Source of the DNA: Pseudomonadales bacterium
Lineage (GTDB): Bacteria; Pseudomonadota; Gammaproteobacteria; Pseudomonadales; Azotimanducaceae
Length of the DNA: 64,000 nt
NCBI GenBank assembly: GCA_028285415.1
Contig: JANQPF010000022.1
Location: 1 to 64,000 of the forward strand
Direction: 5' to 3'
Shown one piece after another: positions 26,998 to 49,761 of the stretch. The notes under the pieces are model-generated. The model was given only the letters and a program-made list of their open reading frames with translations, ran no database searches and was not told the DNA's origin. The position numbers were made by a program, and so were the translations under genes. Each line of letters begins with the position of its first letter. Position 1 is the first letter of the stretch.

Positions 26998-27362
26998 GTC
27001 GTGTGCTTACTACCTATCTTGAGTACGAGTGGCGCTTGCAAACCATTCAACAAATCACTCACCCATTCACTCAGCAAATGACGTGCCATGTAGGCTGCCT
27101 CGTTGACATAGGTCTGAACGCCCGGTGGTTTTTCAGCGTTTCGAGCGAGCTCGTGGCGTTCGACACTGCACTAGAAATAGTCATTTCGAGCGGTCCTGCA
27201 CTACTTCAGTGCTGTTCCATGGTCTCCAAACCTGGGCGTGTCCGCTTGCGATCCATAGAAAACACCGGCGTCAGGGAAGGACGGCGGTTGGTCTGTTTTT
27301 TGCAGTATCCATGAATGGCAGGAACCAAGACAGACGCGAAGTTAGCCATGGAGAACGATTGA
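26998..27362. other. 365-bp region upstream of the first desaturase gene, no gene seen
   Basis: A divergent promoter region between the membrane protein gene (minus) and the hydroxylase gene (plus). Open frames at 27003-27314 and the leader of 27125 have no protein-like features. No clear hairpin or operator was found. Confidence 0.4.
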
Positions 27363-29306: not shown

Positions 29307-29322
29307 AGGTGATGTTCGACTA

Positions 29323-31349: not shown

Positions 31350-31360
31350 GGCGGGGCACG

Positions 31361-32583: not shown

Positions 32584-32624
32584 TGGAGTAGTCTCATCGA
32601 TTGTTTTTTTCGGGCGGTTTGTCC

Positions 32625-34424: not shown

Positions 34425-34450
34425 TGGCTTCCCGGTTCCTGGAGGAAAAG

Positions 34451-34466
34451 AGCAACAATCGTGCCA
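34451..34466 (-). promoter_or_regulatory. Sigma-54 promoter of the allophanate hydrolase gene
   Basis: Read on the minus strand: TGGCACGATTGTTGCT, an exact match to TGGCACG-N4-TTGCW with GG-N10-GC spacing. Its -12 lies about 27 bases before the start codon (34424), with a possible ribosome site AGGAA between. The paired NtrC-like sites lie upstream of it. Confidence 0.8.
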
Positions 34467-34519
34467 ACGGGGTGGATGCTTTTCGGCCGGCTCCGATCAT
34501 CTACGCGGCGTTTGATAGC

Positions 34520-34564
34520 GATCCATATTGGTGCGCTGCCGTTTCCGGGTCACCGTACTGGTGC
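34520..34564. promoter_or_regulatory. Paired NtrC-like enhancer sites between two sigma-54 promoters
   Basis: Consensus GCACY-N5-RGTGC. Site 1 (34520-34534) is GATCCATATTGGTGC; site 2 (34550-34564) is TCACCGTACTGGTGC, whose CACC/GGTG arms are inverted. The right half (GGTGCGCT) repeats at exactly 30 bases, about three helical turns. They lie about 55-110 bases from each of the two flanking promoters, the usual enhancer distance. Confidence 0.55.
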
Positions 34565-34629
34565 GCTCGTTTGGCTCGAGAACGCCTGAGAACCCGGTGA
34601 TGCGTACGATGTCGGTCACACCCGGCGTG

Positions 34630-34645
34630 TGGCACCAGTTTTGCA
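34630..34645 (+). promoter_or_regulatory. Sigma-54 promoter of the DUF1989/carboxylase operon
   Basis: TGGCAC (34630-34635), 5 bases, TTGCA (34641-34645), with GG-N10-GC spacing. The start codon at 34682 is 37 bases further, preceded by GGAG at 34672-34675. It mirrors the sigma-54 promoter of the divergent allophanate hydrolase gene. Confidence 0.8.
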
Positions 34646-34681
34646 TTCCCTTTGTCATTCGAGAACGTCTTGGAGCGAGGG

Positions 34682-35395
34682 ATGCCGTTAACGAGCTATG
34701 CCGACACGCTGCCGGGTGGACGTCATTGGTCGATGCGCCTCCGTCGTGGCGTTGCGCTCGAGCTGACTGACCTCCACGGTGGAGGCAACGTCGGCATGAT
34801 TTTCTATAACCCGGAGAACCCGCTCGAGCGTCTCAACCTGCCGGATTCGCTGAAGTGTCAGCACACGTTCAAAATCACACAGGGACATTGCCTCTACTCC
34901 GACATGGGGCGCATTTTCTGCTCGGTCGTCGAGGATGACTGGGGTTGGCACGATGCTGCCTGCGGTACCTGTAACGCCGACATGGTGGTCGCCAAATGGG
35001 GACATTCGAGCTATCAGGACAGCCGGAACGACTATCTGCGCAACGGCAGGGACTCTTTTCTCATCGAACTCGGCAAGTACGGCATGGGTAAACGCGATCT
35101 GACCGGGAACATGAACTGGTTCAGTCAGGTCAACGTCGATGAGGCAGGGAAGCTCAGTCTCGATCCACGCCAGGCCCCTGGTGCGCGGGTCGTGCTGCGT
35201 TTCGAAATGGACACGATTGTCGTGCTGCACACTTGTCCGCATCCGCTGAACGCCTCTGCCGAGTATCCACGCCGCGATATCGGCTATCGGGTGTTTGCTG
35301 TGCCGTCACCGGCTGAAAACGACCCCTGTCGGCTGTCGCGTGAGGAGAATGCTCGCGGATACGAAAACACAGAACTTTATTACCTGGGATCGTAA
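34682..35395 (+). CDS. DUF1989 protein, urea-carboxylase-associated protein 1 / carboxyguanidine deiminase subunit
   Basis: 237 residues from ATG 34682. DUF1989: M-I-F-Y-N-P-E-N-P-L-E-R-L-N, then S-D-M-G-R-I-F-C-S, H-D-A-A-C-G-T-C-N-A-D, Y-Q-D-S-R-N-D-Y, M-N-W-F-S-Q-V-N and H-T-C-P-H-P. The paired DUF1989 proteins next to urea carboxylase were long called UAAP1/2; later work showed that in guanidine-using bacteria they form carboxyguanidine deiminase (CgdAB), making allophanate. Here the set (two DUF1989, carboxylase, allophanate hydrolase) is complete for that pathway. Which subunit it is cannot be fixed without comparison. Confidence 0.88.
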   Translation: MPLTSYADTLPGGRHWSMRLRRGVALELTDLHGGGNVGMIFYNPENPLERLNLPDSLKCQHTFKITQGHCLYSDMGRIFCSVVEDDWGWHDAACGTCNADMVVAKWGHSSYQDSRNDYLRNGRDSFLIELGKYGMGKRDLTGNMNWFSQVNVDEAGKLSLDPRQAPGARVVLRFEMDTIVVLHTCPHPLNASAEYPRRDIGYRVFAVPSPAENDPCRLSREENARGYENTELYYLGS

Positions 35396-36040
35396 GTGCT
35401 CAAAGAAAGTCACAGAGATCCGGCACTCGCGCTGGATCGTCACAACGTAGATGCAGGCAGCTTCTGGCTGGGTCGGTTGTCTGAAGGCCAGGTGCTGCGG
35501 ATCACTGATCTTGAGGGCAACCAGGCTGTAGACACGTTGTTCTTCAACTCGGATAACCCCAGGGAGCGCTACAGCGCGTTCGATACCATTCGCAGCCAGG
35601 GGGAAGTCTATCTAACGAGCGGATCGACGCTGCTTTCCGATGAAAACCACGCGATGTTGCGGATCGTTGCGGACACGTGTGGGCGTCACGATACGCTCGG
35701 TGGAGCGTGCGCGGCGGAAAGTAATACCGTGAGGTATGCGCTCGAAAAGAAAACCATGCACTCCTGTCGTGACAGCTGGCTTCTGGCTTTGACGACAGAG
35801 TACGCGGATATCGGGCTCAGCAAACGCGATCTCTCCCACAACGTCAATTTTTTCATGAATGTGCCGGTGACCCCATCGGGTGGTCTGACCTTTGAGGACG
35901 GGGTCAGCGGGCCGGGCAAATACGTGGAAATGCAGGCGCTGATGAACGTTCTCATCCTCATTTCAAATTGCCCACAGCTCAACAATCCCTGTAACGGTTA
36001 CAACCCGACGCCGGTTGATCTGACCATCTGGGCTGAGTGA
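35396..36040 (+). CDS. DUF1989 protein, urea-carboxylase-associated protein 2 / carboxyguanidine deiminase subunit
   Basis: 214 residues from GTG 35396, directly after the stop of the first DUF1989 gene. Matches include L-F-F-N-S-D-N-P-R-E-R-Y, T-C-G-R-H-D-T-L-G-G-A-C-A-A-E-S-N, L-S-H-N-V-N-F-F-M-N-V and S-N-C-P-Q-L-N-N-P-C-N-G-Y-N-P-T near the end, the usual DUF1989 conserved blocks with their Cys and His. It would pair with the preceding protein to act on the product of the carboxylase. Its stop overlaps the carboxylase ATG (TGATG). Confidence 0.88.
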   Translation: MLKESHRDPALALDRHNVDAGSFWLGRLSEGQVLRITDLEGNQAVDTLFFNSDNPRERYSAFDTIRSQGEVYLTSGSTLLSDENHAMLRIVADTCGRHDTLGGACAAESNTVRYALEKKTMHSCRDSWLLALTTEYADIGLSKRDLSHNVNFFMNVPVTPSGGLTFEDGVSGPGKYVEMQALMNVLILISNCPQLNNPCNGYNPTPVDLTIWAE

Positions 36041-39000
36041 TGTTCGACAAGGTTCTCATTGCCAATCGGGGCGTTGCCGCCGTGCGTATTGAACGCACGC
36101 TCAGGCGACTGGGCGTTCAGAGCGTCGGGCTACGTTCTTCAGCGGAAGCGGATGCCACCTACTTCTCCGCCATGGATGAGGTGTTCGATCTAGGCGACGG
36201 GCCATTGGCTGATACCTATTTGAACGCTTCGCGCATTGTAGACGCGGCTGTAGAAACCGGCGTCCAGGCAATTCATCCGGGATATGGATTCTTGAGCGAA
36301 AACGCAGACTTTGCGGAAGCCGTTGCCGATGCCGGACTGACCTTTGTTGGTCCTAGTCCGGCAACAATTCGCGCGTTCGGTTTCAAGCACCGCGCTCGAG
36401 AAATTGCCCGGCAGGCCGGCGTGGAGATGCTCCCCGGCAGCGAATTGCTGGCCGACCCGGATGCGGCGGTCGCAGCTGCCGAGGAACTCGGGTTTCCGGT
36501 CATCCTCAAGAGTACCGCCGGTGGTGGCGGCATCGGGATGCAGCGTTGCGATTCCGTCGAGGAGCTCAGCAGAGCCTATTCCACCGTTCGCGATCTTGCG
36601 GCGGCCAATTTTGCGGCGCCCGACATGTTTCTCGAGAAATTCCTGGTTGCGCCAAGGCATGTCGAAGTTCAGATCTTCGGCGATGGGTGTGGGGGCGTTG
36701 TGGTGCTGGGTGATCGTGACTGCTCTCTCCAACGCCGCAATCAGAAACTGGTGGAAGAGTGTCCGGCGCCCGCTGTGCCTGATGAAGTACGCTCACAGCT
36801 GCACGCTCAGGCGGCCGCCCTTGCTCGAGCGACTGACTATGCCAGCGCCGGCACCGTGGAGTTTCTCTACGACGCGGTGGAAAACCGGTTTTACTTTCTC
36901 GAGGTGAACACCCGTCTGCAGGTTGAGCATGGCGTTACCGAGCTGGTCTACGGCGTAGACCTCGTGGAATGGATGCTGCAGCTTGCTGCCGGAGAGCTGC
37001 CTTCAGCGCATCTTCTCGCGGAATCGCTGACGCCCCATGGCGCTGCAATCCAGGCGCGACTCTATGCGGAAGATCCCTACCATGATTTTCGTCCAACACC
37101 CGGCCCTGTTGATATCGACTATCGAACAGAGACTCGCGTCGATACCTGGGTGCTGGGTTCCGAATTGGTTCCGCACCAGTTTGATCCTTTGCTTGCCAAC
37201 GTCATTTGCCACGCTGACGATCGTTCAGCAGCAATGGTGAAACTGCGCCGGACCCTGGCCCAGGCTGACATCTACGGCATCGCTACGAATCGGATGTACC
37301 TGGCGGAAGCGCTCGCCGGGCAGGCGTTTGCGGATGCCTCGATGAGCACCGCCATGCTCGGGTCGTTGGTTTACGAGCCGGATGAAGTGGAGGTGGTGAG
37401 TGCCGGACTACAGACCACAATACAGGCGTTTCCCGGCAGGCAGGGTTATTGGGAAGTTGGTGTGCCGCCGTCAGGGCCAATGGATGACCTGTCGTTTCGT
37501 CTGGCCAACAGGCTGCTTGGCAACGCCGAGGACGCCGCCGGACTGGAGATTGTATTCGAGGGCCCAACGTTGTTGTTTCGCAGCGCCGTTGATGCCGTCG
37601 TTACCGGCGCTGACGTGCCCGTTCTTCTCGATGGGCAACCGGTAGCAGCCTGGCAGGTTCTGCGGGTGCAAGCCGGCCAGCGGCTCGATATTGGCCGGGT
37701 TGAAAATGGCATGCGCTGTTACCTGCAGGTTCGCGGGGGCTTTGACGCCAAAACCGTGCTGGGATCGGTGACAACTTTTACTCTGGGCAATATGGGCGGC
37801 CACGAAGGCCGGCAGCTGCGCACCGGGGACGTTCTGCGCTGGCGCGCGGCAGACCCGGTGGATGCCGCAGCTCCCGCAAAACTCGACATCAGCGCTCGAC
37901 TCAAAATACGCGTGCTTCCGGGTCCGCATACCGCCCCCGATTTTTTTACGCCCGAAGACATCCAGCAGATCTTCGCGGCACGCTGGCGTGTGCATCACAA
38001 TTCGAGCCGGACAGGCGTGCGCCTGATCGGGCCGCAGCCGGTCTGGGCCCGGGAGGATGGTGGGGAAGCAGGTTTGCATCCGTCGAACATTCACGACAAC
38101 GCCTATGCTTTCGGAGCGCTGGACTTCACGGGCGACATGCCGGTCATTCTCGGTCCGGATGGGCCGTCACTCGGCGGCTTCGTCTGCCCTGCGGTGGTCA
38201 TCAACGCCGACCGCTGGAAGCTCGGTCAGCTGCAGCCCGGTGACGAGGTGGATCTCGTTTGTGTCTCTGCCGCAGAGGCGGAGGCGGCCCTCGCCGAGCA
38301 GGAAGCCTATCTCGCTAACCCTGCCGGAGGTTTGATCGAGACTTCCGGCGAAGGCGCATCGCCTCTAGCGAGCCCCGTGTGCTGGCAGAGTACGCAGCAG
38401 GAACTCGATCTTCCGGTTGTCGTCCGCCGGGCGGGTCAGGAGTGGCTGCTGATCGAGTTTGGTGCGCCGGTCCTTGATATCCGGATTCGCGTTGTTGTGC
38501 ACGTACTGATGAAACTTCTCATGGACGAGCGCCTGGAGGGTCTAGTTGAGATGACGCCGGGTGTGCGCTCGCTGCAGGTGCGGTTCGATCATCGCCGGTG
38601 GTCAACGCAAACGCTCATCGAGGCGCTCAGACCTTGTATAGAGGAAGCCACGCGGGCCCGGTCACATACGCTGAGTTCTCGCATCGTGCACATGCCGCTC
38701 TCCTGGGACGATCCGGCCTGCCAGCTGGCGGTCGAGCGTTACTTGAGCAGCGTTCGTGCGGATGCCCCCTGGTGTCCGGACAATATCGAGTTCATTCGAC
38801 GCATCAACGGTCTTGATGAAAAAGCGGACGTCAAACGGATCGTCTTTGACGCAAGTTACCTGGTGCTCGGTCTGGGCGATGTATACCTTGGGGCGCCGGT
38901 TGCCACGCCGGTGGATCCTCGTCACCGTCTCGTGACAACCAAATACAATCCCGCACGCACCTGGACGGCTGAGAACAGCGTGGGCATTGGCGGCTCGTAC

Positions 39001-39603
39001 ATGTGCGTTTACGGGATGGAAGGGCCAGGCGGCTACCAGTTCGTGGGACGTACGACCCCGGTGTGGCGTCTTGAAGGCTTTTCAGCGGATGAGCAGGCCT
39101 GCTGGCTCCTGAACCATTTTGACCAGATCCGCTTCCATGAAGTGGATCCGCAAACGCTGATGGAACTGCGCGAAGCGACTCGGCGCGGTGCGTACGTGCC
39201 GGACGTAGAAGAATGCAGTTTCAGCCTGGATGGCTACGAGGAGTTGTTGAGGGACAACGCGAACGAGATCGAGGCGTTCAGCGCGCGTCGCACCGCCGCT
39301 TTTGCTGCGGAATTGCAGCGCTGGCGGGAACTGGGGCTGCATACCTTTGCAGAAGCTGCGGAAAGTGAAGCGCCGGAGACAGAGCCCGTTGACGGTTATG
39401 TCGTAGCAAGCCCGATGGCTGCCTCGGTGTGGCGTATCAACAGCTCGGCGTCTCGCGGTGTCGATGCGGAAAGCGAAATCCTCCTGCTCGAAGCGATGAA
39501 GTCCGAGATCAGCGTGCTCAGCCCGGTATCCGGATGCGTTGAATTTCTTGTTAAAGAAGGGCAGGTTGTTGAGCCGGGGCAGGCGCTTGCGGTGGTTCGC
39601 TGA
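36040..39603 (+). CDS. Urea/guanidine carboxylase (biotin-dependent)
   Basis: 1187 residues from ATG 36040 (the GTG one codon earlier is within the overlap). Domains: biotin carboxylase with ATP-grasp (1-450; K-S-T-A-G-G-G-G-I-G-M, H-V-E-V-Q-I-F-G-D), then the KipA-like AHS2 domain (about 465-775; G-V-P-P-S-G-P-M-D-D-L-S-F-R-L-A-N), the KipI-like AHS1 domain (about 790-1000; L-I-E-F-G-A-P-V-L-D-I-R ... T-P-G-V-R-S-L), and a biotinyl domain with E-A-M-K-S-E (biotin Lys about 1154). It carboxylates urea to allophanate or guanidine to carboxyguanidine. The two DUF1989 partners favour guanidine; specificity cannot be read from sequence alone here. Confidence 0.92.
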   Translation: MFDKVLIANRGVAAVRIERTLRRLGVQSVGLRSSAEADATYFSAMDEVFDLGDGPLADTYLNASRIVDAAVETGVQAIHPGYGFLSENADFAEAVADAGLTFVGPSPATIRAFGFKHRAREIARQAGVEMLPGSELLADPDAAVAAAEELGFPVILKSTAGGGGIGMQRCDSVEELSRAYSTVRDLAAANFAAPDMFLEKFLVAPRHVEVQIFGDGCGGVVVLGDRDCSLQRRNQKLVEECPAPAVPDEVRSQLHAQAAALARATDYASAGTVEFLYDAVENRFYFLEVNTRLQVEHGVTELVYGVDLVEWMLQLAAGELPSAHLLAESLTPHGAAIQARLYAEDPYHDFRPTPGPVDIDYRTETRVDTWVLGSELVPHQFDPLLANVICHADDRSAAMVKLRRTLAQADIYGIATNRMYLAEALAGQAFADASMSTAMLGSLVYEPDEVEVVSAGLQTTIQAFPGRQGYWEVGVPPSGPMDDLSFRLANRLLGNAEDAAGLEIVFEGPTLLFRSAVDAVVTGADVPVLLDGQPVAAWQVLRVQAGQRLDIGRVENGMRCYLQVRGGFDAKTVLGSVTTFTLGNMGGHEGRQLRTGDVLRWRAADPVDAAAPAKLDISARLKIRVLPGPHTAPDFFTPEDIQQIFAARWRVHHNSSRTGVRLIGPQPVWAREDGGEAGLHPSNIHDNAYAFGALDFTGDMPVILGPDGPSLGGFVCPAVVINADRWKLGQLQPGDEVDLVCVSAAEAEAALAEQEAYLANPAGGLIETSGEGASPLASPVCWQSTQQELDLPVVVRRAGQEWLLIEFGAPVLDIRIRVVVHVLMKLLMDERLEGLVEMTPGVRSLQVRFDHRRWSTQTLIEALRPCIEEATRARSHTLSSRIVHMPLSWDDPACQLAVERYLSSVRADAPWCPDNIEFIRRINGLDEKADVKRIVFDASYLVLGLGDVYLGAPVATPVDPRHRLVTTKYNPARTWTAENSVGIGGSYMCVYGMEGPGGYQFVGRTTPVWRLEGFSADEQACWLLNHFDQIRFHEVDPQTLMELREATRRGAYVPDVEECSFSLDGYEELLRDNANEIEAFSARRTAAFAAELQRWRELGLHTFAEAAESEAPETEPVDGYVVASPMAASVWRINSSASRGVDAESEILLLEAMKSEISVLSPVSGCVEFLVKEGQVVEPGQALAVVR

Positions 39604-39701
39604 CGCCGGAGCCGGGCACCAAGTTTGCGCTTCTTCGGTTTCTTCGACCCATTCCCGTGCATCGTTCGAATTTCCCGTGTTCATTCCATGTGCACGTTTG
39701 C

Positions 39702-39745
39702 GCACCGATTTGGTTCGACGGCGCTTGAACTCCCCGTTGTAGTGC
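39702..39745. promoter_or_regulatory. Paired NtrC-like sites upstream of the first TonB receptor
   Basis: Site 1 (39702-39716) GCACCGATTTGGTTC, with 9 of 10 specified bases of GCACY-N5-RGTGC. Site 2 (39731-39745) TCCCCGTTGTAGTGC, with a perfect right half. Spacing is 29 bases, about the same as in the other two promoter regions of the cluster. They lie 65-108 bases before the sigma-54 promoter. Confidence 0.5.
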
Positions 39746-39808
39746 GAAAACGCTGAAAAAACCCGTCTTCGCTTCGATAACTGCGAAAACAAGTCGTTGG
39801 AAAGGCGT

Positions 39809-39824
39809 TGGCACGCTCTTTGCT
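39809..39824 (+). promoter_or_regulatory. Sigma-54 promoter of the first TonB receptor gene
   Basis: TGGCACGCTCTTTGCT is an exact match to TGGCACG-N4-TTGCW with GG-N10-GC spacing. It ends 51 bases before the start codon at 39875, which has a ribosome site AAGGGGG at about 39864-39870. Confidence 0.8.
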
Positions 39825-39874
39825 GAATCTGCTGGAAGTTTCATTGCAATCAAATGCAAGCAAAGGGGGTAAAT

Positions 39875-42800
39875 ATGAAACGACGCACGCGCGGGCTTTA
39901 CGTTCTTGCGATTGTCATATCTGCGGTCGGCCTGTCACCTTCAGGCGTTGTTCTGGCGGCCGAAGAAGAAGCAGAAATAGAAGAAGTGGTAGTCACCGGC
40001 ACACGGTTGAAAACTTCCAACGCGAACTCCTCACAGCCGATTGTGTCGGTCACAGCGGAGCAACTCGTGGAAGGGGGGCAGCTGGACATCAGCGAGGTGC
40101 TGAATGATGCGCCGCCTCTGCTCAACAGTATTTCATCGACCAACTCTCTCGACGGGGTTGCTTCGAATCTGGATCTCGAAAATACACAGAATTTCGGCGG
40201 GGCGGCGCTCGACCTTCGCGGCCTGGGAGACAAACGTACGCTCACCCTGGTCAACGGGCGGCGCCACGTGTCGGGGATTGAAGGCTCCGCAGCCGTAGAC
40301 ATCACAACCATACCGTCGGCGCTGATCGATCGGATCGACGTGCTGTCGGGTGGTGCGTCAGCGGTCTATGGATCCGATGCCGTAACCGGGGTTGTCAACG
40401 TCATTTTGAAAGACGACTTCGAAGGCATGGAAATCTCCTTCCAGGGGGGCGCAGCAGAGGCGGGTGACAACGACGGCGGCCGCTTCTCCTTTATCGGCGG
40501 TTCAAATTTCGCGGACGGGCGAGGTAACGTCACGGTTGCGATTCAATACGAAGAAGACTCCGGATTGCTCATGGGTGACCGGGGCTTTCTGGGGAACAAC
40601 AATCTCGCAAACGATGATGCGAATCCGGCGTTGAGGTTCCAGTTCGGGGATATCACCGAGTCCACCCCCAACTTCGCAAGATATTACAACTTTGAAAACA
40701 CCGGTTTGTTTGGTCTGGGTTTACGTATTCCCGAATCCGAAACCTTCATCGCCGACTACACCTCTGAATTTGGCGAGGCACCGACTCTGACCCAGGCTGA
40801 GCTGGATCTGCTGGATCGGGGCGCCAACGCCTTTCCCCAGGCAATCCTGCCCGGCCGCACGTTCAATATCACCAGCCCTTACGGCGTGGTGGCGATCGGC
40901 GACTTCGGCACCGAGTTTCCTCTGGGCACCGAGCCGGACCTGGACGGTGACGGCACAACAGACTGCTTGCAGAGCTTCAATGGCTACAACAGTTCCCTGG
41001 ATGGCGCGGGTTCGTTCGGTATTGCGGGCGGTTGCTGGGCAATCAACGCTGACGGGCAACTCGTTCCGTACGAGGACGGCTTGATTGCCGGGTCCTTCAA
41101 TCACTTCGGAGCGGAGCAGAGTTACGTCCGCCCGGATGACTTCCATGCGATTCCGGAGCGTAAACAGTACTCCATCGACGTCATCGGACACTTCGACATG
41201 ACCGAGGCCGCCTCAATTTTCTGGGAAGCCAAATACGTCTACCAGGAGATCGAAGCGATCGAGCAGTATCACAACTTTACCGACCTGCTCTACGGTGCGC
41301 CCGATAACCCTTATCTACCCGAGGAGCTGAGCGCGTTCGTCAACAACGCCGGGCTCGGATTTGGTGGTATCGACGGAGGATTGCACATCTCTCGTGATTC
41401 CGACGACTGGGGTGAGAATCTCACGACGAACGAACGAGAAACCATGCGGTTTGTCGTGGGTATCGAAGGCGCCATTGGTGACGTCTTCTCATATGAGATC
41501 AGCGGCAACTACGGCAAGTTCGAGCGCGAGATGGTCGATCGCGAAGACATGATTGCCGACCGTTTTTTCGCCGCAATCGACGCGGTGACGGACCCGGCAA
41601 CGGGTGAAGCTGTATGCCGCTCGGATCTGGACCCAACGGCATATCCGCGCACAACGCCCTTCAATATCTTCCAGTTCGTGGGCGGCGGTGTGCCGTCCTC
41701 GTTCTTTACGTTTACGCCCGGTGACGGGCAGTGCCGCCCGATGAACATATGGGGCGGCAGGGGTGCCATGTCGCAGGAGTCCATCGACTTCGTGACCTAT
41801 GATCGTGAAGTGAATGAAGAGATCGAGCAGACGGTGTTCACCGCGTTCGTCACCGGTGATTCCTCGCCCTGGTTCGAATTGCCTGCGGGGCCCATTGGCA
41901 TCGTCGTGGGTGCCGAATGGCGTGAAGAAAAAACCAGCCAGGATTTTGGTCTCCTCGATCAGGGTATTCTGCCGGTTTCCGGAGTGACGTCGGATGGCAC
42001 CCCGTTCAGCGCGGGAGACTGGGTTGGTGACGTGAGTGCCGCCCAGAGCCTGGGGCCGGTTCCGTCGACCCGATTGTTGCCGAGTTCATCGGACTACGAC
42101 TTCTTCGACTATTTCGTAGAAGTCTCGATTCCGCTGCTTGCCGATCTGCCTGGCGCGCAGGAGCTGGGTATTGATCTCGCGTATCGCGAAAGCGACAACT
42201 CCGTCTTCGGCAGCAATGACACCTACAAATACGGCCTGAACTGGGCGCCGACGTCGGACGTGCGTTTCCGCTATACGTTCAGCGAGGCTACCCGGGTTCC
42301 CAATCTGTTTGAGCTCTTCTCGCCAGAGCAGGGTGCACGTTTCCGGCCGGATGATCCCTGTGACGCCAACAACATCGTGACCGCGGCGGATCCTTCTCTG
42401 CGTGAAGCAAACTGCATCGTTGACCTGCAGGCCAACGGCGTGGCGGATGCGGCGATATTCGACTCGCTCGGCAACTACGCGTTTGAAGACCCGCTGTCCG
42501 CAGGTTTCCCGGGTGCCATCGGCGGTAACCCGGATCTGCTGCCGGAGACGGGAGAAACGACCAGCTACGGCATCGTGCTGACGCCGAGATTCCTCGAAGG
42601 GCTGACCCTCAGCGTCGACTACATCCAGATAGAAATTGAAGACGCCATTCTCGATGTATCGGAACAGAACATTGTGAATCGTTGCTACGACTCGTCGAGT
42701 CTGGCGAACCAGTTCTGTCCGCTCATCAGTCGGAACGATGACCCGACGTCCGCTCAGTCGGGTGGTCTCGACTTTCTGCGACAGGTGCAGCTGAACTTCG

Positions 42801-43282: not shown

Positions 43283-43298
43283 CGATGTAAACGCGTTT

Positions 43299-43333
43299 TG
43301 CCGGCCCCGCTTCTGACGAGCGGGTGGCCGGCA
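43299..43333 (+). terminator. Terminator hairpin after the first TonB receptor gene
   Basis: GCCGGCC (43300-43306) pairs with GGCCGGC (43326-43332), and CCGCT with AGCGG inside it, a long stem with a bulge. A short T-rich run follows (TTTCGTT). It lies 17 bases after the receptor stop. Confidence 0.65.
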
Positions 43334-43435
43334 TTTCGTTCCCGTAAAGCAACGTCGTGCACGTGCGGTCGGCGTCACACATTCCTCCGGTTTTTGGACT
43401 ACCATTAGCGGTGAGAGAGGAATGGAGACCGTTGC

Positions 43436-43672
43436 ATGTTGTGCTTCGGGAACGTCGCGCGCGCTTGCGTGCTCGCGTGTCTTTGCTTGCTTTTCGGTTG
43501 TGCCGGCAATCCCGCTGATTTCGAAACCCTCACGGGTTCGAGTCTGCAGCCCGCAAACTCGACGGCACGCGAAAGTTGCCCCTCTGGTCAAATCAAGGTG
43601 TGTGATCGACGTAAAGCGATTGGCTGTCGTTGCCAGTCGCCTCGTCACATGCGTGCCCTGATCGGCGCCTGA
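43436..43672 (+). CDS. Small cysteine-rich lipoprotein
   Basis: 78 residues from ATG 43436 with a lipoprotein signal (A-C-V-L-A-C-L-C-L-L-F-G-C-A). The mature part of about 50 residues has four cysteines (E-S-C-P, K-V-C-D, G-C-R-C). I recognise no family. The coding start has no strong ribosome site, but the lipobox makes a real gene likely. Confidence 0.55.
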   Translation: MLCFGNVARACVLACLCLLFGCAGNPADFETLTGSSLQPANSTARESCPSGQIKVCDRRKAIGCRCQSPRHMRALIGA

Positions 43673-43676
43673 GGCC

Positions 43677-43722
43677 GCGCTATTTTAGTGCGCTGATGCC
43701 GGACGTTGTCCGGTATGTGTGC
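43677..43722. promoter_or_regulatory. Paired NtrC-like sites upstream of the HupE/ABC operon
   Basis: Site 1 (43677-43691) GCGCTATTTTAGTGC, an inverted repeat with 9 of 10 specified bases of the NtrC consensus. Site 2 (43708-43722) GTCCGGTATGTGTGC is weaker. The repeat GTGCGCT recurs at 31 bases, as in the 34.5-kb region. Between them lies CCGGAC-GTT-GTCCGG (43699-43713), a separate perfect inverted repeat. Confidence 0.45.
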
Positions 43723-43762
43723 GCTTTGCTCCCAAAACCCCCACCAGCCCGCCGAATCCCGT

Positions 43763-43778
43763 TGGCATAGTTATTGCT
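43763..43778 (+). promoter_or_regulatory. Sigma-54 promoter of the HupE/MBL/ABC operon
   Basis: TGGCATAGTTATTGCT has TGGCA in the -24, GG-N10-GC spacing and a perfect TTGCT -12. It ends 79 bases before the first start codon (43858). All genes from here to 49761 run on the same strand with little or no spacing. Confidence 0.7.
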
Positions 43779-43857
43779 ATCAATTTGGGGGGCGCTGGCG
43801 TTCATCGCCGGTGCGGTAATAACAGAATAATGCCCAACAATGGGGCTCTGGTGTTTC

Positions 43858-45003
43858 ATGAAGGGGGTCTTCTACATAGCCGGTCTGCTCTTGCTGCCGG
43901 CGGCGTTTCCGGCGCACGGCCATCTTCTCAACATGACGGAGATGCATCTGCAGGGTGCGCAGGACGGATCCGCGATCCTCGAGGTGCGGATTGATCTCGG
44001 GCAATCGCTCATGACGCCGGAAGCCTACTGGCAGGCCGCTCTGGCCAACGGCCGCAAAGAACAGAAGCAGCACTTGGAACATGCCATTCTAGCGCTCACC
44101 GATGGCCTGTCCGTCGTCGCAGACGACCGTCGAGCAAACCTCACGCTCCGCGACTGGCGGCTGGAAGCGGTGTCTCCGGAAGCGATTCGTAATCCGCTCA
44201 CCCCGCAGATGGCAACCTTGCGGTTTGATGTGAACCTGCGTTCCGCGGCGAAGGTGGAAGTCAGTCTGACGGAAAAGCTGCAGGTGCCCTGGCCATGCCT
44301 GCTCCGTGTCGATATTCCGGGCGTAGACCTGCCGGTGTCGCGGCTGCTTACGGACGACGTGCGCTCGAGCCGCGCCGTTGCGATGGTGAGCGGTGCGGAT
44401 ACGGGCAACGCCCCGACGCTGGCTCAGCTTGCCTCCTCCTTCCAGTCGGTCGTTCCCGCGATCACCTGGGTGGCGGTCGGTTTTCAGCACATCATTCCCC
44501 GCGGGTTGGATCACATTGTCTTTCTCCTGGGTTTGTTCTTTCTTTCGCTGCGATTCTCCACGCTGTTGTGGCAGGTGTCGTGTTTCACGCTGGCGCATTC
44601 GCTGACCTTGGGCATGGCGACGTTCGGGCTGGTGCAGGTCCCGGCGGCGATTGTCGAGCCGCTGATCGCGGCGTCCATCATCTACGTTGCCGTCGACAAC
44701 CTTTACAGCGAACGTCTCGCCAGGTGGCGAATGATGGTCGTTACTGTGTTCGGTCTGCTCCACGGCCTCGGGTTTGCCTCCGCTCTGGGACACGTGCGCG
44801 TACCTGAGGATACCTTCCTGCTGTCTCTGGCGATGTTCAACTTGGGCGTCGAGCTGGGCCAGCTGACGGTACTCGCGTGCGCTTTTCTGGTGGTTGGATG
44901 GTTGCGTCGCTGGTCTGCCTACCAGGTACGCGTGGCGCAGCCGGCTAGCGTGACGATCGCTGGTGTGGGTCTCTACTGGCTCGTCAAGCGGCTCGCTTTT
45001 TGA
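43858..45003 (+). CDS. HupE/UreJ-like membrane protein with periplasmic N-terminal domain
   Basis: 381 residues from ATG 43858 with a signal peptide (M-K-G-V-F-Y-I-A-G-L-L-L-L-P-A-A-F-P-A-H-G). About 170 residues of periplasmic domain follow, then a six- to seven-helix HupE/UreJ_2 region with its usual motifs: G-L-D-H-I-V-F-L-L-G-L, A-H-S-L-T-L, F-G-L-L-H-G-L-G-F-A and F-N-L-G-V-E-L-G-Q. HupE and UreJ proteins are thought to move nickel or cobalt, but this longer subfamily is uncharacterised. Its place in front of the MBL and ABC genes suggests help with uptake of the operon's substrate. Its stop overlaps the next frame. Confidence 0.85.
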   Translation: MKGVFYIAGLLLLPAAFPAHGHLLNMTEMHLQGAQDGSAILEVRIDLGQSLMTPEAYWQAALANGRKEQKQHLEHAILALTDGLSVVADDRRANLTLRDWRLEAVSPEAIRNPLTPQMATLRFDVNLRSAAKVEVSLTEKLQVPWPCLLRVDIPGVDLPVSRLLTDDVRSSRAVAMVSGADTGNAPTLAQLASSFQSVVPAITWVAVGFQHIIPRGLDHIVFLLGLFFLSLRFSTLLWQVSCFTLAHSLTLGMATFGLVQVPAAIVEPLIAASIIYVAVDNLYSERLARWRMMVVTVFGLLHGLGFASALGHVRVPEDTFLLSLAMFNLGVELGQLTVLACAFLVVGWLRRWSAYQVRVAQPASVTIAGVGLYWLVKRLAF

Positions 45004-45014
45004 GGCTGAAGGTT

Positions 45015-45986
45015 GTGAACGCGAAGCAATCCATGCTGGCAATTTTGATGGTGACGGTGTCGCTCTTCGTCGTGGAAGGGGCGCTTTCTGCTGTTGGGGG
45101 TAAGGTACTCGAGTTTCCGGCTGACGGCAGGGCGGCGGGCGAATTCCCGGACGTCTGGATTCACGGCTCCAAGTCTGCCATGGACAATGATGATCCAGCC
45201 GTGCAGGTGCATCGCTATAACGATCACACGTTCATTCTGCGTGAAAACAAGGCGATCAACTACGAAGGTGCGTTTATGTACCTCTTTTTCGGCAACGACG
45301 TGGCGTTGCTTGTTGATCAGGGCTCGACGTCTTCGCCCGCGTTGTTTCCCTTGCGGAAAGTTGTCGACGATCTCATTGATTCCTGGGGGCGAGAGTTCGG
45401 CCGGACGGATATCCGGCTCATTGTCGCCAATAGTCACCTGCACGGAGACCACTACGCAGCATGGAATCAGTTCGTGGACCGACCCAATACGGTCATGGTT
45501 GGACTCACGCACGAGGAAATGATGGCGTTCTGGGGCTTCGAAGCCTACCCGGACGAGCGGATCGAATTCGACCTGGGCGGACGGGAGTTTGTCGTCACGG
45601 GCACGCCGGGTCACCAGGCGTCAGAAATTGCTTTGTACGACAAGTGGACCGACTTGCTTTACACGGGCGACATGTTTTACCGCGGACGTCTGTATCTGGA
45701 AGATTGGGAAGCGTGGGCCGCGAGCATCAAGCGGCTGCGCGCGCTTGCAGATGACTACCCGGTTGCGCACCTCGTCAACAACCACATCGAAATGACCCGC
45801 AAACCCGGGGTCGACTATCCGATCGGAACAACCTGGCAGCCGGACGAGCCGCCCATGCAGATGACCATGAGCATGCTCGATCAGGCAGTTCGAGCCACGG
45901 CAGACATCTCGGCGCCGGGCATTTATACGTTCGATGATTTCCTCATCTACAACGAAGTGCCATGGGCATACACAACGGATCCGTGA
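45015..45986 (+). CDS. Secreted metallo-beta-lactamase-fold hydrolase, active-site ligands present
   Basis: About 323 residues from GTG 45015 (ATG 45033 is an alternative), with a signal peptide (S-M-L-A-I-L-M-V-T-V-S-L-F-V-V-E-G-A-L-S-A), so it acts in the periplasm. The MBL zinc motifs are complete: H-x-H-x-D-H as S-H-L-H-G-D-H, then T-P-G-H, T-G-D and N-N-H-I-E-M. A motif W-I-H-G-S ... V-Q-V-H-R-Y-N-D-H-T-F-I-L precedes the fold. The substrate is unknown. It is followed by a close paralogue that has lost these residues. Confidence 0.85.
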   Translation: MNAKQSMLAILMVTVSLFVVEGALSAVGGKVLEFPADGRAAGEFPDVWIHGSKSAMDNDDPAVQVHRYNDHTFILRENKAINYEGAFMYLFFGNDVALLVDQGSTSSPALFPLRKVVDDLIDSWGREFGRTDIRLIVANSHLHGDHYAAWNQFVDRPNTVMVGLTHEEMMAFWGFEAYPDERIEFDLGGREFVVTGTPGHQASEIALYDKWTDLLYTGDMFYRGRLYLEDWEAWAASIKRLRALADDYPVAHLVNNHIEMTRKPGVDYPIGTTWQPDEPPMQMTMSMLDQAVRATADISAPGIYTFDDFLIYNEVPWAYTTDP

Positions 45987-46969
45987 GCAGGGTGAGGAGA
46001 ATCATTGCGATCCTGTGCGTTCTGAATGCGGGCGTGGTCCACGGTGAAATTCTTTTCGACACCACAGACGTGGCGCCCGGTAATCTTCGATTCACCTGGA
46101 TACACGGCAGCCTGTCTGCCAAGGCAAACACGGATGTCCGGATTCAGGTGCATCGATACAACGAGCACACCTACATTCTGCGTCAGAATCCCGCGGTCCA
46201 CTGGGAAGCACCTTTCATGTATCTCTTGATGGGTAACCATACGGCCGTTCTTCTGGATGCGGGCGCGCTGGAAGAGGCGGAGTACTTTCCCTTGCGCGAG
46301 GTGGTCGAGAGGACCATGGAGCGCTGGATGTATGCCAACGACATTCGAGAGATGAAGCTGGTTGTGCTGCCGCTGGGGAATGATCCCTCACAAACGGCAG
46401 CGCTTGAACAGTTCGGCAACCGACCGGATACCGTGGTTGTCCCTCCTGAGCCCCGTGGCCGTCGCGAGGTTCTGGGAACTGACTGGCCGCAGGCCGGCCG
46501 CCTGGATCTGGGAGGCCGCGAGCTCGAGGTGCTGGCGACGCCCGGACTGGATGCGGCGGCCGTCACTGTCTACGATCCATGGTCGCGCGTGCTCTTTACG
46601 GGCAACGCCTTCTATCCCGGCCGTCTCGTGATTCGCGACTTCACCGCTTACAAGAGCTCACTTCGTGACCTCGCAGCGTTCAAGGAAATGCACCCGGTGC
46701 GCTGGATCTGGGGCGGCAGAATCGAGATGACGGCACAACCGGGTCTCGATTACATCTTGCGGACCAACTATCGACCCAACGAACACCCGCTGGAGCTCAG
46801 CCCCGATCTGCTCGACGACGCGTTGCAGATCGTCAGCATGATCAATGGGTCGACGGACATCCGCATACATGATGACTTCATTGTCATGCACGGTGTGGGC
46901 AGAGGCGCTCGCGACTACGGATGGCCCGTGTTCATTCCCGAACGGTTCCGCGAATTAAATACACGTTGA
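45983..46969 (+). CDS. Metallo-beta-lactamase-fold paralogue without metal ligands
   Basis: 328 residues from GTG 45983, which overlaps the previous stop (GTGA); the frame reaches back to ATG 45962. A signal peptide follows (R-R-I-I-A-I-L-C-V-L-N-A-G-V-V-H-G). It aligns along its length with the upstream MBL protein, including W-I-H-G-S, V-H-R-Y-N-E-H-T-Y-I-L and R-I-E-M-T, yet every zinc position is changed: S-H-L-H-G-D-H becomes L-P-L-G-N-D-P, T-P-G-H becomes T-P-G-L, T-G-D becomes T-G-N, and N-H-I-E-M becomes G-R-I-E-M. It is therefore probably a catalytically dead twin, perhaps a binding or partner subunit. Confidence 0.82.
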   Translation: MSRVRRIIAILCVLNAGVVHGEILFDTTDVAPGNLRFTWIHGSLSAKANTDVRIQVHRYNEHTYILRQNPAVHWEAPFMYLLMGNHTAVLLDAGALEEAEYFPLREVVERTMERWMYANDIREMKLVVLPLGNDPSQTAALEQFGNRPDTVVVPPEPRGRREVLGTDWPQAGRLDLGGRELEVLATPGLDAAAVTVYDPWSRVLFTGNAFYPGRLVIRDFTAYKSSLRDLAAFKEMHPVRWIWGGRIEMTAQPGLDYILRTNYRPNEHPLELSPDLLDDALQIVSMINGSTDIRIHDDFIVMHGVGRGARDYGWPVFIPERFRELNTR

Positions 46970-46988
46970 TGAGTTGAGGAGTAACGCC

Positions 46989-47951
46989 GTGCGTTTCGTT
47001 GCCAGTATTGTTTTTTCGGTGTTGTTAGCCCTGGCGCTGCCGGTGTCTGCCCAAACTCCGCTGATCGTTGGCTACAGCGACTGGCCGGGCTGGGTTGCCT
47101 GGGAGATTGCGCTCGAAAAGGGATGGTTCGACGAGGCGGGCGTTGAGGTGGAGTTCGAGTGGTTCGATTATGTCGCCTCCATGGAAGCGTTTGCCGCCGG
47201 GCGTCTGGATGCGGTTTGCATGACAAATGGTGACACGCTTGTAACCGGCGCAACGGGCAGACGTGCGCAGATGATGCTGATCAACGACTTTTCGAACGGA
47301 AACGACATGGTTGTGGCGCGTCCAGGGATTGATTCCGTGAATGCTCTGGCAGGCGGAAAGGTTGGCGTTGAAGTCGGGTTCGTCAGCCATTTATTGCTGC
47401 TGCGTGCGCTCGAGTCGGTTGGTCTCAGCGAAGACGACCTCGAGCTCGTAAACGTCAGAACCAACGAAACGCCGATGGTGCTTGCTTCGGGTGAAGTCGA
47501 TGCCATTGTTGCCTGGCAGCCGAATTCTTCTCAATCGCTACTGATGAGCCCCGGTTCGAGCGCAATATTCACTTCGAGAAACGACCCTGGGCTGATTTAT
47601 GACGTTCTGGCGGTAGCGCCGGAGAGTCTGGCCGCGCGTCGAGATGAATGGCAGAAGGTATTTGATGTCTGGTACCGGATCGTCGACTACCTCGCGGTGC
47701 CGGAGAATCTGCCGGAAGGCCTGAGCATCATGGCTGATCGGGTAGGTGTCAGCCCCGCAGAATATGCAGAGTTTTTCGAAGGCACGAACATCCTCACGAA
47801 AGCGCAGGCCAAAGCGCGCTACGAGAAGGGTGAGGGGCTCGAGTCACTCTGGGGCTCAACCCGGCTGGCGGACGACTTCAACGTGAAGTATCGGGTCTAC
47901 GCAGAACCGCAGGACGTTGAAGCCTATCTCGACGCCTCTTTTTACGAGTAA
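46989..47951 (+). CDS. ABC transporter substrate-binding protein (NitT/TauT, NMT1-like)
   Basis: 320 residues from GTG 46989, preceded by GAGGAG at about 46976-46981 (GAGTTGAGGAGTAACGCC). A signal peptide (S-I-V-F-S-V-L-L-A-L-A-L-P-V-S-A-Q) and the NMT1/THI5-like pattern (I-V-G-Y-S-D-W-P-G-W-V-A-W-E-I-A-L-E-K-G-W-F-D-E-A-G-V) are clear. Such proteins bind small organic nitrogen or sulfur compounds. Urea-carboxylase clusters commonly include a NitT-type ABC transporter, so guanidine, urea or a precursor is the likely ligand (inference). Permease and ATPase genes follow directly. Confidence 0.9.
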   Translation: MRFVASIVFSVLLALALPVSAQTPLIVGYSDWPGWVAWEIALEKGWFDEAGVEVEFEWFDYVASMEAFAAGRLDAVCMTNGDTLVTGATGRRAQMMLINDFSNGNDMVVARPGIDSVNALAGGKVGVEVGFVSHLLLLRALESVGLSEDDLELVNVRTNETPMVLASGEVDAIVAWQPNSSQSLLMSPGSSAIFTSRNDPGLIYDVLAVAPESLAARRDEWQKVFDVWYRIVDYLAVPENLPEGLSIMADRVGVSPAEYAEFFEGTNILTKAQAKARYEKGEGLESLWGSTRLADDFNVKYRVYAEPQDVEAYLDASFYE

Positions 47952-47962
47952 GCGCAGAAAGT

Positions 47963-48928
47963 ATGTCGGTCTGGGTGCCAGGAACGCCGCTGAGCAACAC
48001 GTCATCGAGAATGCTCACGCTCGCCTCCTTTTCGATACCGCTGCTGCTCTGGTGCGCCGTGAGTTACGTCCCGGCGCTCTGGCATCCCTATGTTGATGTG
48101 AGCGAACCCGGGTCTGTCGCTTACTTTCGCGAGGGCATGCTGGTCGAACGTCAGCAGTTTGCTGACGAGACTGCGGCTGCGCTGGCCAGAGGTGAGGCAC
48201 CCCCCGGCGGTGAACTGGCAAACCCCGTGTACCTGCCCGCACCACACGAGGTTGCGATTGCGCTCTACACAGGCTTCACGACGCCGCCGGAGCGGCGCAG
48301 CGAGCAATGGTTGCACGAGAGCTTGTGGCACAGCATCACAATCATTTTCTGGGGGTTTGCGTATTCGTGCCTGCTTGGGGTGCCTCTGGGTGTGCTTTGC
48401 GGCGCGTATACCGCTGTAGCGCGGCTGCATGAGCCTTTCATCGAGTTTTTTCGTTACTTTCCGGCACCTGCATTCGGCGCCCTCGCTGTTGCGGTCCTGG
48501 GCATTCACGATGCACCGAAGGTTGCGATCATATTCATAGGCACCTTTTTTCAGATGGTTCTGGTGGTGGCCAACACCACTCGAAAACTGGACGTTCGTTA
48601 CATAGAAGCGGCAATGACGCTGGGTGCGGAGCGACTCCGGCTGCTCTTCCGGGTCGTCGTACCCGGGGTTTTGCCGGACTTGTTCCGGGACCTGCGGATT
48701 CTCCTGGGATGGGCGTGGACTTATCTCATCGTTGCCGAGCTCATCGGCACGAGCTCGGGTATCACCTGGTTCATTACTCAGCAGGCGAGATACAAAAACT
48801 TCGACAGAGTGTTTGCGGCGATCATCGTCATCGGGTTGATTGGACTGCTCTCGGACTGGATTCTCGCGCGCGTCGGTCAGAGGCTCTTTCCGTGGCGTCG
48901 CGCGCAGGCGCTCGGTGGGAGCGCATGA
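47963..48928 (+). CDS. ABC transporter permease (NitT/TauT type)
   Basis: 321 residues with about six helices. The EAA loop is present: E-A-A-M-T-L-G-A-E-R-L-R-L-L-F-R-V-V-V-P-G-V-L-P-D-L. A loop of about 75 residues separates the first helix from the rest, longer than in most SsuC/TauC proteins and mostly periplasmic. It overlaps the ATPase start (ATGA at 48925-48928). Confidence 0.9.
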   Translation: MSVWVPGTPLSNTSSRMLTLASFSIPLLLWCAVSYVPALWHPYVDVSEPGSVAYFREGMLVERQQFADETAAALARGEAPPGGELANPVYLPAPHEVAIALYTGFTTPPERRSEQWLHESLWHSITIIFWGFAYSCLLGVPLGVLCGAYTAVARLHEPFIEFFRYFPAPAFGALAVAVLGIHDAPKVAIIFIGTFFQMVLVVANTTRKLDVRYIEAAMTLGAERLRLLFRVVVPGVLPDLFRDLRILLGWAWTYLIVAELIGTSSGITWFITQQARYKNFDRVFAAIIVIGLIGLLSDWILARVGQRLFPWRRAQALGGSA

Positions 48929-49761
48929 TGGCGGACATGTCCATGCCGATGATGTCGTTCGAGAAGCTGGAAAAAGTGTTCGAGTCGAGTGACGGGTCAC
49001 ATCAAGCCCTCGCGGACATCAACGTGGATGTCCGGAGACGCGAGTTTGTGGCCCTGGTTGGTGCATCCGGTTGTGGTAAATCCACCCTCATTCGCATAGC
49101 AGCCGGGTTGGAAAGCGCGTCAGCAGGGAGGGTGATGGTCACCGGCAGGGAAGTATCTTCTCCCGGTCCGGACCGCGGCATGGTGTTTCAACAGTTTTCG
49201 CTGTTTCCCTGGCTCACGGTCAAAGAGAACGTCATGTTCGGTTTGAGCAGCCAGCGCCACTCCCGGGCCACGTGCGAGCAGATTGCATCGCAGTGGATAG
49301 GACTGATTGGGCTTACCGACTTTACGAATCACTACCCCGCGCAACTATCCGGCGGTATGCAGCAGCGCGTTGCGATCGCGCGCGCCCTCGCGCCGAGTCC
49401 GAAAGTGCTGCTGATGGATGAACCCTTCGGCGCGCTCGATCCCCACACCCGGGCCCGCATGCAGGGTTATCTGCTCGATATATGGGCCAATATGGACATC
49501 ACGGTGTTGTTCGTGACGCATGACCTCGAGGAGGCGGTGCTGCTCGCTGATCGGGTGCTGGTGCTCGCGCCAAATCCCGGACGAGTCGTAGGGTGTGTCG
49601 ATGTGCCGGTGCCCAGACGTGAGGATGGTAGAGATCGTTACGACGCCGTGTTCAAGTCCACCGTGGCTAAGATCGAAAGCCTGTCATCGGTGTGTCAGGG
49701 GCAGGATGAGCCACCGCTGGATCTGTTTCGGCTCGCCCGTGTGGATGCGGCGTCCAGCTGA
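48925..49761 (+). CDS. ABC transporter ATP-binding protein (NitT/TauT type)
   Basis: 278 residues from ATG 48925. Walker A G-A-S-G-C-G-K-S-T, Q-loop V-F-Q-Q-F-S-L-F-P-W, signature L-S-G-G-M-Q-Q-R, Walker B L-L-M-D-E-P-F-G-A-L-D and switch His V-T-H-D-L-E-E-A are complete. It energises the preceding permease. Last gene of the sigma-54 operon. Confidence 0.93.
   Translation: MMADMSMPMMSFEKLEKVFESSDGSHQALADINVDVRRREFVALVGASGCGKSTLIRIAAGLESASAGRVMVTGREVSSPGPDRGMVFQQFSLFPWLTVKENVMFGLSSQRHSRATCEQIASQWIGLIGLTDFTNHYPAQLSGGMQQRVAIARALAPSPKVLLMDEPFGALDPHTRARMQGYLLDIWANMDITVLFVTHDLEEAVLLADRVLVLAPNPGRVVGCVDVPVPRREDGRDRYDAVFKSTVAKIESLSSVCQGQDEPPLDLFRLARVDAASS

Follow-up and report, generated by a model that had tools for sequence, protein, structure and literature searches.

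What is a TonB-dependent receptor doing among nitrogen-degradation genes and behind a promoter of the nitrogen-starvation type? This question is raised by a stretch of 64,000 nucleotides from a Pseudomonadales bacterium of the Azotimanducaceae (positions 1 to 64,000 of contig JANQPF010000022.1, GenBank assembly GCA_028285415.1; hereafter "the window"). An earlier note on this DNA had read positions 34425-49761 as one nitrogen-starvation regulon that may form an import-to-ammonia pathway. That reading has gained support from the promoters and from related genomes and has changed in three respects, i.e., the regulon is larger (26347-49761, ca. 15 genes), its core is by sequence a pathway for guanidine and not for urea, and the control of that core is not new. 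We consider it probable that the locus is a nitrogen-starvation island in which NtrC and sigma-54 drive the import of a guanidine-bearing compound and its breakdown to ammonia.

The island (Table 1) runs from a small membrane-anchored protein (g26347) over two fatty-acid-hydroxylase-family membrane proteins (FAH1 and FAH2) and two exported proteins (lipo31 and lipo216) to an allophanate hydrolase, the two DUF1989 subunits of a carboxyguanidine deiminase (UAAP1 and UAAP2) and a guanidine carboxylase, followed by the receptor and an operon for a HupE/UreJ-family protein, two metallo-beta-lactamase-fold (MBL) proteins and an ATP-binding cassette (ABC) importer. These gene families, like the promoters, paired sites, diagnostic residues and conserved association described below, are evident from the sequences themselves. 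Related genomes and loci are given by our numbers (G and L, respectively).

Sigma-54 promoters and paired NtrC-like sites in the window

The four sigma-54 sites that had been proposed before the hydrolase, the carboxylase operon, the receptor and the HupE operon are exact when read directly, each with GG-N10-GC spacing, and a fifth that the earlier note did not contain precedes g26347. Such a -24/-12 element is present at each unit of the island and is weak only for FAH1 and FAH2. Using a sigma-54 scoring matrix, we found four sites of at least 16 bits in the window, including the fifth one (27073-27088), compared to a mean of 0.35 over 20 Markov-shuffled versions of it. The weakest of the original four (43763, 15.8 bits) alone lies within reach of a single shuffle, where the best site scored between 12.7 and 17.0 bits. 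The strict pattern TGGCAYRN4TTGCW has 15 matches in the 5,972,477-base genome (6 for the reversed control), of which 4 fall in the window (Poisson p ca. 2e-5), and the carboxylase site at 34630 is not among the 15 because it carries a C at position 7. Another strict site precedes a glutamine synthetase gene (best NCBIfam match GlnII with 376 bits, below the 500 required) whose contig also bears ntrC, and the genome encodes both rpoN and ntrC with models matched above cut-off. The sites before FAH1 (10.9 bits) and FAH2 (11.9 bits) are at chance level, with ca. 5 sites of at least 12 bits per 64-kb shuffle, and are suggestive as promoters by position only, while a site at 31354-31369 (15.5 bits) was dropped as a promoter since it overlaps the start of lipo31.

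Pairs of NtrC-like sites spaced by 29-31 bp had also been described in three control regions, which suffice for four units because two of these diverge from one region. We scored them with a matrix that started from a seed consensus and was then trained with 33 sites that lie upstream of sigma-54 unit heads in other genomes. Its scores are therefore circular on the training loci, and independent tests are those on the window and on the glutamine synthetase gene. The pairs were found in all three regions at the stated spacing, with pair P values between 0.001 and 0.010 against random stretches of the window (Table 1; the receptor test compares a 229-bp stretch to a 170-bp null and has a small bias). 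For the best single site, P is 0.010, 0.004 and 0.007 in these regions and 0.007 upstream of the fifth promoter, while the second pair member is weak in the three regions (9.2, 9.1 and 5.2 bits). Site centres lie 48-103 bp upstream of the -24 element, close to the 40-110 bases given before, and those of the fifth promoter at 87-117 bp.

The glutamine synthetase gene, which is outside the training set, has a pair at -100/-70 (20.6 and 11.5 bits). If both members must reach 5 bits, a pair is found at the strict site of this gene, at 4/4 of those in the window and at two further ones, while the other 8 of the 15, one of which precedes a pilin-like gene, have none. The enrichment at the strict sites of the window has a Fisher p of 0.026 at this threshold of 5 bits, which was picked after the scores were known. 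The pairs at the window sites and the glutamine synthetase gene and their absence from the 8 others make NtrC more likely as activator than another enhancer-binding protein.

One pair-less strict site (L006) was considered as a flagellar promoter and rejected, as it points away from the FlgA-like gene. Elsewhere, the 16-mer of the receptor promoter is repeated at L004 (C15:172522), where just one NtrC-like site accompanies it and the open reading frames downstream are all short, and sigma-54 sites with NtrC-like pairs precede a small lipoprotein-like gene at L013 (C26:330654) and an acyltransferase-like gene at L014 (C29:49353), both named by eye.

The guanidine pathway and its partners in related genomes

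The core of the island combines a carboxylase carrying the diagnostic pair of Asp residues with two DUF1989 subunits and an allophanate hydrolase, i.e., the enzyme marks of the guanidine pathway, and by these it is a guanidine carboxylase pathway acting on guanidine, not urea. Asp696 of the carboxylase aligns to Asn1330 of the K. lactis urea enzyme and Asp948 stands at position 1584, counted in the same alignment. Asp at these two positions was used to call guanidine carboxylases (Nature 2024, PMC11410670), and the available text of a 2025 review draws the same distinction between Asp and Asn (PMC12186494). Both residues are present in 35/35 readable carboxylases among the 37 homologues in the loci that we fetched (two are gapped there), and urea was dropped as substrate given the guanidine-type Asp.

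Control of this core by NtrC and sigma-54 is not new, since it has been reported or predicted: the NtrC table of B. cenocepacia H111 lists a urea carboxylase, its ABC transporter protein and a "urea carboxylase-related aminomethyltransferase" (PMC5491218), which we take for the DUF1989 gene, and sigma-54 control of DUF1989 (COG3665) is among the predictions for proteobacteria in PMC12316311. The island thus shares the carboxylase, the transporter protein and a DUF1989-like gene with the H111 regulon, but the word TonB is absent from the main text of that report as it is from those of PMC12186494, PMC12508155 and PMC11410670. With known guanidine operons (gca, cgdAB, atzF and an ABC importer), e.g., in Vreelandella boliviensis (PMC12508155; review PMC12186494), the island shares the carboxylase, two DUF1989 proteins, allophanate hydrolase, ABC importer and diagnostic Asp. 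However, those operons are described as controlled by guanidine-I or guanidine-II riboswitches, as is usual but not obligatory for the pathway, and we found such elements neither here nor in 8 other TonB-linked loci; the window has none at gathering score and 34300-44000 none at E<=5. Moreover, the island consists of several sigma-54 units and not of one operon, adds the TonB receptor, HupE, the MBL pair and the lipoproteins, and has di-iron hydroxylases where the additions in V. boliviensis are a 2-oxoglutarate dioxygenase and a lyase (PMC12508155). New here are the attached TonB receptor, HupE with the MBL pair, the two di-iron hydroxylases and the GNAT-like lipoproteins. In the open-licence literature, a search for a link between such a receptor and the guanidine pathway gave two genome papers with one or two mentions of the terms each, and among the further papers listed none is on this link by title or start of abstract. 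The available text of PMC12316311 predicts sigma-54 control in Flavobacteriia for TonB itself, as opposed to a receptor, and calls it unconfirmed.

The earlier note had joined the receptor to the degradation genes, and this linkage recurs in relatives. The receptor has matches in 18 of 200 genomes of the family, i.e., 12 close ones (at least 57%) and 6 paralogues of only 42-46%. The carboxylase model is matched at E<=1e-250 in 42 of the 200, comprising 10 of the 12 genomes with a close receptor and 32 of the 188 without one (1 of the 6 with a paralogue). Of the two close-receptor genomes lacking a carboxylase match, G179 has UAAP1 over the cut-off and in G360 none was found. Receptor and member genes share a contig in 10 of 13 homologues (the 12 plus isolate LSUCC0112), and in G364 and G179 the receptor tail lies beside member genes on a second contig. 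In G335, the whole set is contiguous over 21 kb (949,975-971,145) in the order ABC, MBL2, MBL1, HupE, FAH, g26347, lipo31-lipo216, FAH, UAAP1, UAAP2, carboxylase, hydrolase and receptor, where only two open reading frames of at least 100 residues (100 and 111) are unmatched, both on the minus strand in the gap from hydrolase to receptor. In G471, HupE, MBL1, MBL2, TonB and the ABC genes for substrate-binding protein (SBP), permease and ATPase follow each other on one strand; a sigma-54 site of 16.3 bits precedes HupE and another of 13.9 bits precedes TonB.

The promoters recur as well. The earlier note had named a lack of promoter elements in orthologous loci as one refutation of its reading. 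Such elements are present: of the 69 unit heads scored beyond the window, 44 have a sigma-54 site of at least 13 bits (48/74 overall), compared to 1.3% of stretches drawn at random from these loci. This set of heads includes some genes probably inside operons and was drawn up without L052, L055, L056 and L136 and without the six stretches that have 42-46% TonB paralogues. By gene and with the window included, such sites occur at 24/29 SBP, 9/12 TonB, 5/8 HupE, 5/12 UAAP1, 2/7 allophanate hydrolase, 2/4 lipo216 and 1/2 lipo31 heads. At the TonB heads of the window, LSUCC0112, G466 and G471, NtrC-like pairs stand at -100 to -104 / -70 to -73, and all four scorable HupE heads have theirs at -78 to -80 / -47 to -49; the pairs are shifted at the TonB heads of G415 (-113/-83) and G335 (-146/-117) and fail the test at those of G384, G360 and G179. 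Overall, the pair score is above the 95% level of the null at 27/46 heads, of which 4 come from the window and most others from the training set.

A carboxylase tree of 35 rows, from which the 2/37 below 900 residues were left out and in which the two-frame carboxylase of G415 does not figure, places ten TonB-cluster carboxylases in four places and rejects a single clade (p=2e-6). For two of these rows (G472 and G367) no close TonB homologue was found; the four places remain without them, and the test included them. The partnership with the receptor has therefore outlived replacement of the enzyme. Window and G384 are joined in the receptor tree (80% identical, support 100/99), while their carboxylases stand apart (54% identical). 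The ABC importer comes in two types, with an SBP 62-66% identical to that of the window in 9 loci and 27-34% in 24.

The riboswitches set the receptor-linked loci apart, too. At gathering score, a guanidine riboswitch is found in 0/9 receptor-linked loci compared to 18/23 others in a scan made without L065-L067, i.e., in 7/12 unlinked loci within the family and 11/11 elsewhere in the order (Fisher p 0.007 within the family and 7e-5 overall, relatedness not removed). LSUCC0112, which has a Gd-II element upstream of the carboxylase and its receptor elsewhere, is counted among the 23. Several relatives show tandem control in which a sigma-54 site is followed by a guanidine-I riboswitch and then the operon (L048, L051, L059, L141, L144 and L146), a combination of guanidine riboswitch and NtrC for which we found no paper in the open-licence literature.

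Cargo of the receptor and rival readings

Under nitrogen shortage, phosphorylated NtrC would act from the paired sites to activate sigma-54 RNA polymerase, and the five strong promoters, perhaps seven, at 26-44 kb would fire together. The receptor would then bring a guanidine-bearing compound across the outer membrane, where the MBL pair, the di-iron hydroxylases and the GNAT-like lipoprotein, which are exported or in the membrane, may trim it before guanidine, or a small derivative of it, enters the cell by the ABC importer. There, guanidine carboxylase, carboxyguanidine deiminase and allophanate hydrolase would convert guanidine to ammonia and CO2, as follows from published biochemistry for these cytoplasmic steps. 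That the cargo of the receptor feeds this pathway, the order of the periplasmic steps and the role of HupE (by its family match probably metal supply) are what we infer.

The MBL proteins are a conserved pair of an intact and a degenerate enzyme, because the metal ligands (HxHxDH, His, Asp, His) are kept by MBL1 in 8/8 loci and all lost by MBL2, beside its intact paralogue, in 8/8. HupE, which has an exported N-terminal region besides the PF13795 domain that it shares with the HupE/UreJ family, precedes MBL1-MBL2 in 8/8 close-homologue loci, a biased sample fetched via TonB or MBL1. Among the 200 family genomes, MBL1 is matched at E<=1e-60 in 9, with G329 as a 38% relative in a different setting. 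A poor structural model of MBL1 (pLDDT 53) gave only generic metallo-beta-lactamase-fold proteins in Foldseek; these are uninformative on the substrate, and a drug-resistance reading was not taken.

In a more specific form, for which we have only tentative confidence, an energised receptor, a periplasmic hydrolase made of a live and a dead MBL protein and a di-iron hydroxylase would free guanidine from a natural compound under NtrC control. The guanidine riboswitch would have been lost with the arrival of the receptor because nitrogen shortage, not guanidine, became the relevant signal. Release of guanidine by oxidation has a precedent in the demethylation of methylguanidine described for Vreelandella (PMC12508155). 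Rieske oxygenase genes adjoin the set in G347, G380 and G384; these are possible N-dealkylases and would fit the same theme of oxidative release. These genes lie beside or near the allophanate hydrolase or the cluster at L098 (1305-2423), L140 (7643-8755) and L092 (3990-5141).

Several observations weigh against our reading of the island. Guanidine is small enough for porins, and a receptor is therefore not needed for guanidine itself. The related genomes are not mutually independent, and in LSUCC0112 the TonB gene lies apart from the guanidine operon. A 13-bit sigma-54 site is missing from 26/74 unit heads; before TonB, G347, G299 and G364 have only the same weaker element (10.7 bits), and before HupE, G384 and G415 yielded no site (the G335 head was scored over a short stretch only). 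Peripheral genes also occur in G360 (87% complete), G354 (84%) and G137 (99%, where a 42% TonB homologue stands beside lipo216/lipo31), in which UAAP1 and allophanate hydrolase were not found by a search that for the hydrolase, at E<=1e-100, also misses G179 with its fragment. Finally, CobW-family GTPase genes (PF02492) stand a few genes upstream of HupE in G466 (L110) and G471 (L096/L097).

The CobW genes speak for the main rival, namely that the receptor and HupE bring in nickel, cobalt or zinc for MBL1, the deiminase or the hydroxylases, while the nitrogen compound enters via porin and ABC importer. HupE/UreJ proteins are known as nickel/cobalt permeases. The best database matches of the receptor, which stays under the cut-off of every NCBIfam model listed, are of BtuB type in the plug region. 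Directly after the sigma-54-driven TonB gene of LSUCC0112 lies an arginase-family remnant with stops (L016 13420-14308), and the arginase family uses metals. Among the papers listed that name HupE, UreJ and TonB-dependent together, most are by their titles on metals. Nevertheless, the control elements seen are those of NtrC and sigma-54, the window has no cobalamin or NiCo riboswitch at gathering score, and in G347, G299 and G415 the TonB gene is linked to guanidine genes with no HupE on the same stretch. We regard this rival as unlikely.

It seems improbable, too, that the receptor, the HupE-MBL operon and the lipoproteins scavenge other nitrogen, e.g., peptides, and have nothing in common with the guanidine genes beyond the NtrC switch and their place in the island. 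Transfer could have brought the genes together, given the integrase gene at the flank, and G354, G360 and G137 have peripheral genes without a detected core. However, two of these three genomes are incomplete and the receptor of the third is only a 42% homologue, while the same receptor accompanies carboxylases from four places in the tree and the block of G335 is contiguous. We give hardly any weight to an ordinary guanidine operon with passengers, in which the sigma-54 sites of receptor and HupE are coincidental or vestigial: it would agree with the control known (PMC5491218) or predicted (PMC12316311) for the core in those sources and with the three TonB heads that have a weak site only, but not with the recurrent pair positions at four TonB and four HupE heads.

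Further features of the island and what it may mean

Table 1. Features of the island in window coordinates (sigma-54 scores in bits).
Feature	Position	Strand	Evidence and remarks
g26347, small membrane-anchored protein, first gene after fifth sigma-54 site	26347-26997	-	no Pfam/NCBIfam match at E<=0.001
Fifth sigma-54 site TGGCACGTCATTTGCT, before g26347	27073-27088	-	19.4; strict-pattern match
FAH1, fatty-acid-hydroxylase-family membrane di-iron protein	27125-28327	+	PF04116 E=7e-26; likely start ca. 27362
NtrC-like pair, fifth site	27167-27183 + 27197-27213		30 bp; 7.2/16.2 bits; P(best site)=0.0073
Weak sigma-54-like site, FAH1	27289-27304		10.9
Weak sigma-54-like site, FAH2	30326-30341		11.9
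FAH2, fatty-acid-hydroxylase-family membrane protein	30375-31349	+	PF04116 E=1e-25; likely start 30396
lipo31, lipoprotein with GNAT-like domain	31361-31999	+	single-sequence model, Foldseek; no Pfam match
lipo216, exported protein, downstream of allophanate hydrolase gene	32005-32655	-	no Pfam match
Allophanate hydrolase, AtzF type	32625-34424	-	TIGR02713 706 bits, cut-off 511
Sigma-54 site TGGCACGATTGTTGCT, allophanate hydrolase	34451-34466	-	19.4; strict-pattern match
NtrC-like pair, common to divergent units	34519-34535 + 34549-34565		30 bp; 13.4/9.2 bits; P=0.001
Sigma-54 site TGGCACCAGTTTTGCA, carboxylase operon	34630-34645	+	17.0
UAAP1, carboxyguanidine deiminase subunit, DUF1989	34682-35395	+	TIGR03425 312 bits, cut-off 206; start not TTG 34652, because that is too near the promoter
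UAAP2, carboxyguanidine deiminase subunit, DUF1989	35396-36040	+	TIGR03424 318 bits, cut-off 285
Guanidine carboxylase (annotated urea carboxylase)	36037-39603	+	TIGR02712 1582 bits, past curated cut-off
NtrC-like pair, TonB	39701-39717 + 39730-39746		29 bp; 16.7/9.1 bits; P=0.004
Sigma-54 site TGGCACGCTCTTTGCT, TonB receptor	39809-39824	+	19.4; strict-pattern match
TonB-dependent receptor	39875-43282	+	Plug PF07715 and barrel PF00593; frame opens at 39854, 39875 has the better ribosome site
NtrC-like pair, HupE	43676-43692 + 43707-43723		31 bp; 16.2/5.2 bits; P=0.010
Sigma-54 site TGGCATAGTTATTGCT, HupE operon	43763-43778	+	15.8
HupE/UreJ-family membrane protein	43840-45003	+	PF13795 E=3e-46
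MBL1, exported metallo-beta-lactamase-fold hydrolase, metal site intact	45000-45986	+	PF00753
MBL2, MBL1 paralogue (37% identical) without metal ligands	45962-46969	+	Pfam 23.8 bits, cut-off 22.7
ABC substrate-binding protein (SBP)	46974-47951	+	best TIGR03427 (putative urea/carboxylase-region SBP model) 147 bits, under cut-off 334
ABC transporter permease	47963-48928	+	PF00528
ABC transporter ATPase	48925-49761	+	PF00005

The left part of the island has counterparts in relatives. A weak homologue of g26347 (32% identity) stands behind a sigma-54 site in G335, and FAH homologues adjoin TonB or lipo216. Genes lipo31 and lipo216 form a single frame in four relatives and in both orders (216-31 in G384 and G044, 31-216 in G335 and G354); these fused frames were seen at loci L091/L092, L058, L094 and L133. 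The domain of lipo31 is GNAT-like according to a single-sequence model of pLDDT 49, for which the 50 listed Foldseek matches are all acetyltransferases with a TM of ca. 0.3, one of them at E<=0.001; such a domain is odd in an exported lipoprotein because acetyl-CoA is not expected there. The listed open reading frame of lipo216 overlaps the allophanate hydrolase gene, and its true start probably lies further in.

NUDIX and DUF218 genes lie between the hydroxylases (28659-30000); they were not noticed in the clusters of relatives, where no search was aimed at them. A phage-integrase-family gene (25594-26232, minus strand, PF00589 E=1e-7) adjoins the left end of the island, and this flank and the patchy distribution fit gain by transfer. 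Further left, there is a tRNA-Arg at 21184-21260 and a match to the Rfam family Cis8_sRNA at 13186-13313 (60.9, threshold 58), which is probably spurious because this family takes its name from Ruegeria.

Where guanidine comes from in nature is an open question according to the available text of a 2025 review (PMC12186494), and a receptor that accompanies the pathway points to a guanidino compound rare or large enough for energised import and could give a handle on this source. The shift from control by riboswitch and sigma-54 to sigma-54 alone can be compared across close relatives, and the isolate LSUCC0112 carries pathway and receptor, so that parts of this picture are open to testing. Known TonB-dependent receptors, with which ours has plug and barrel in common, are linked to iron, cobalamin or glycans, whereas here the receptor is linked to guanidine degradation and to NtrC/sigma-54. 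If our reading is true, TonB-dependent uptake would here be tied to nitrogen.

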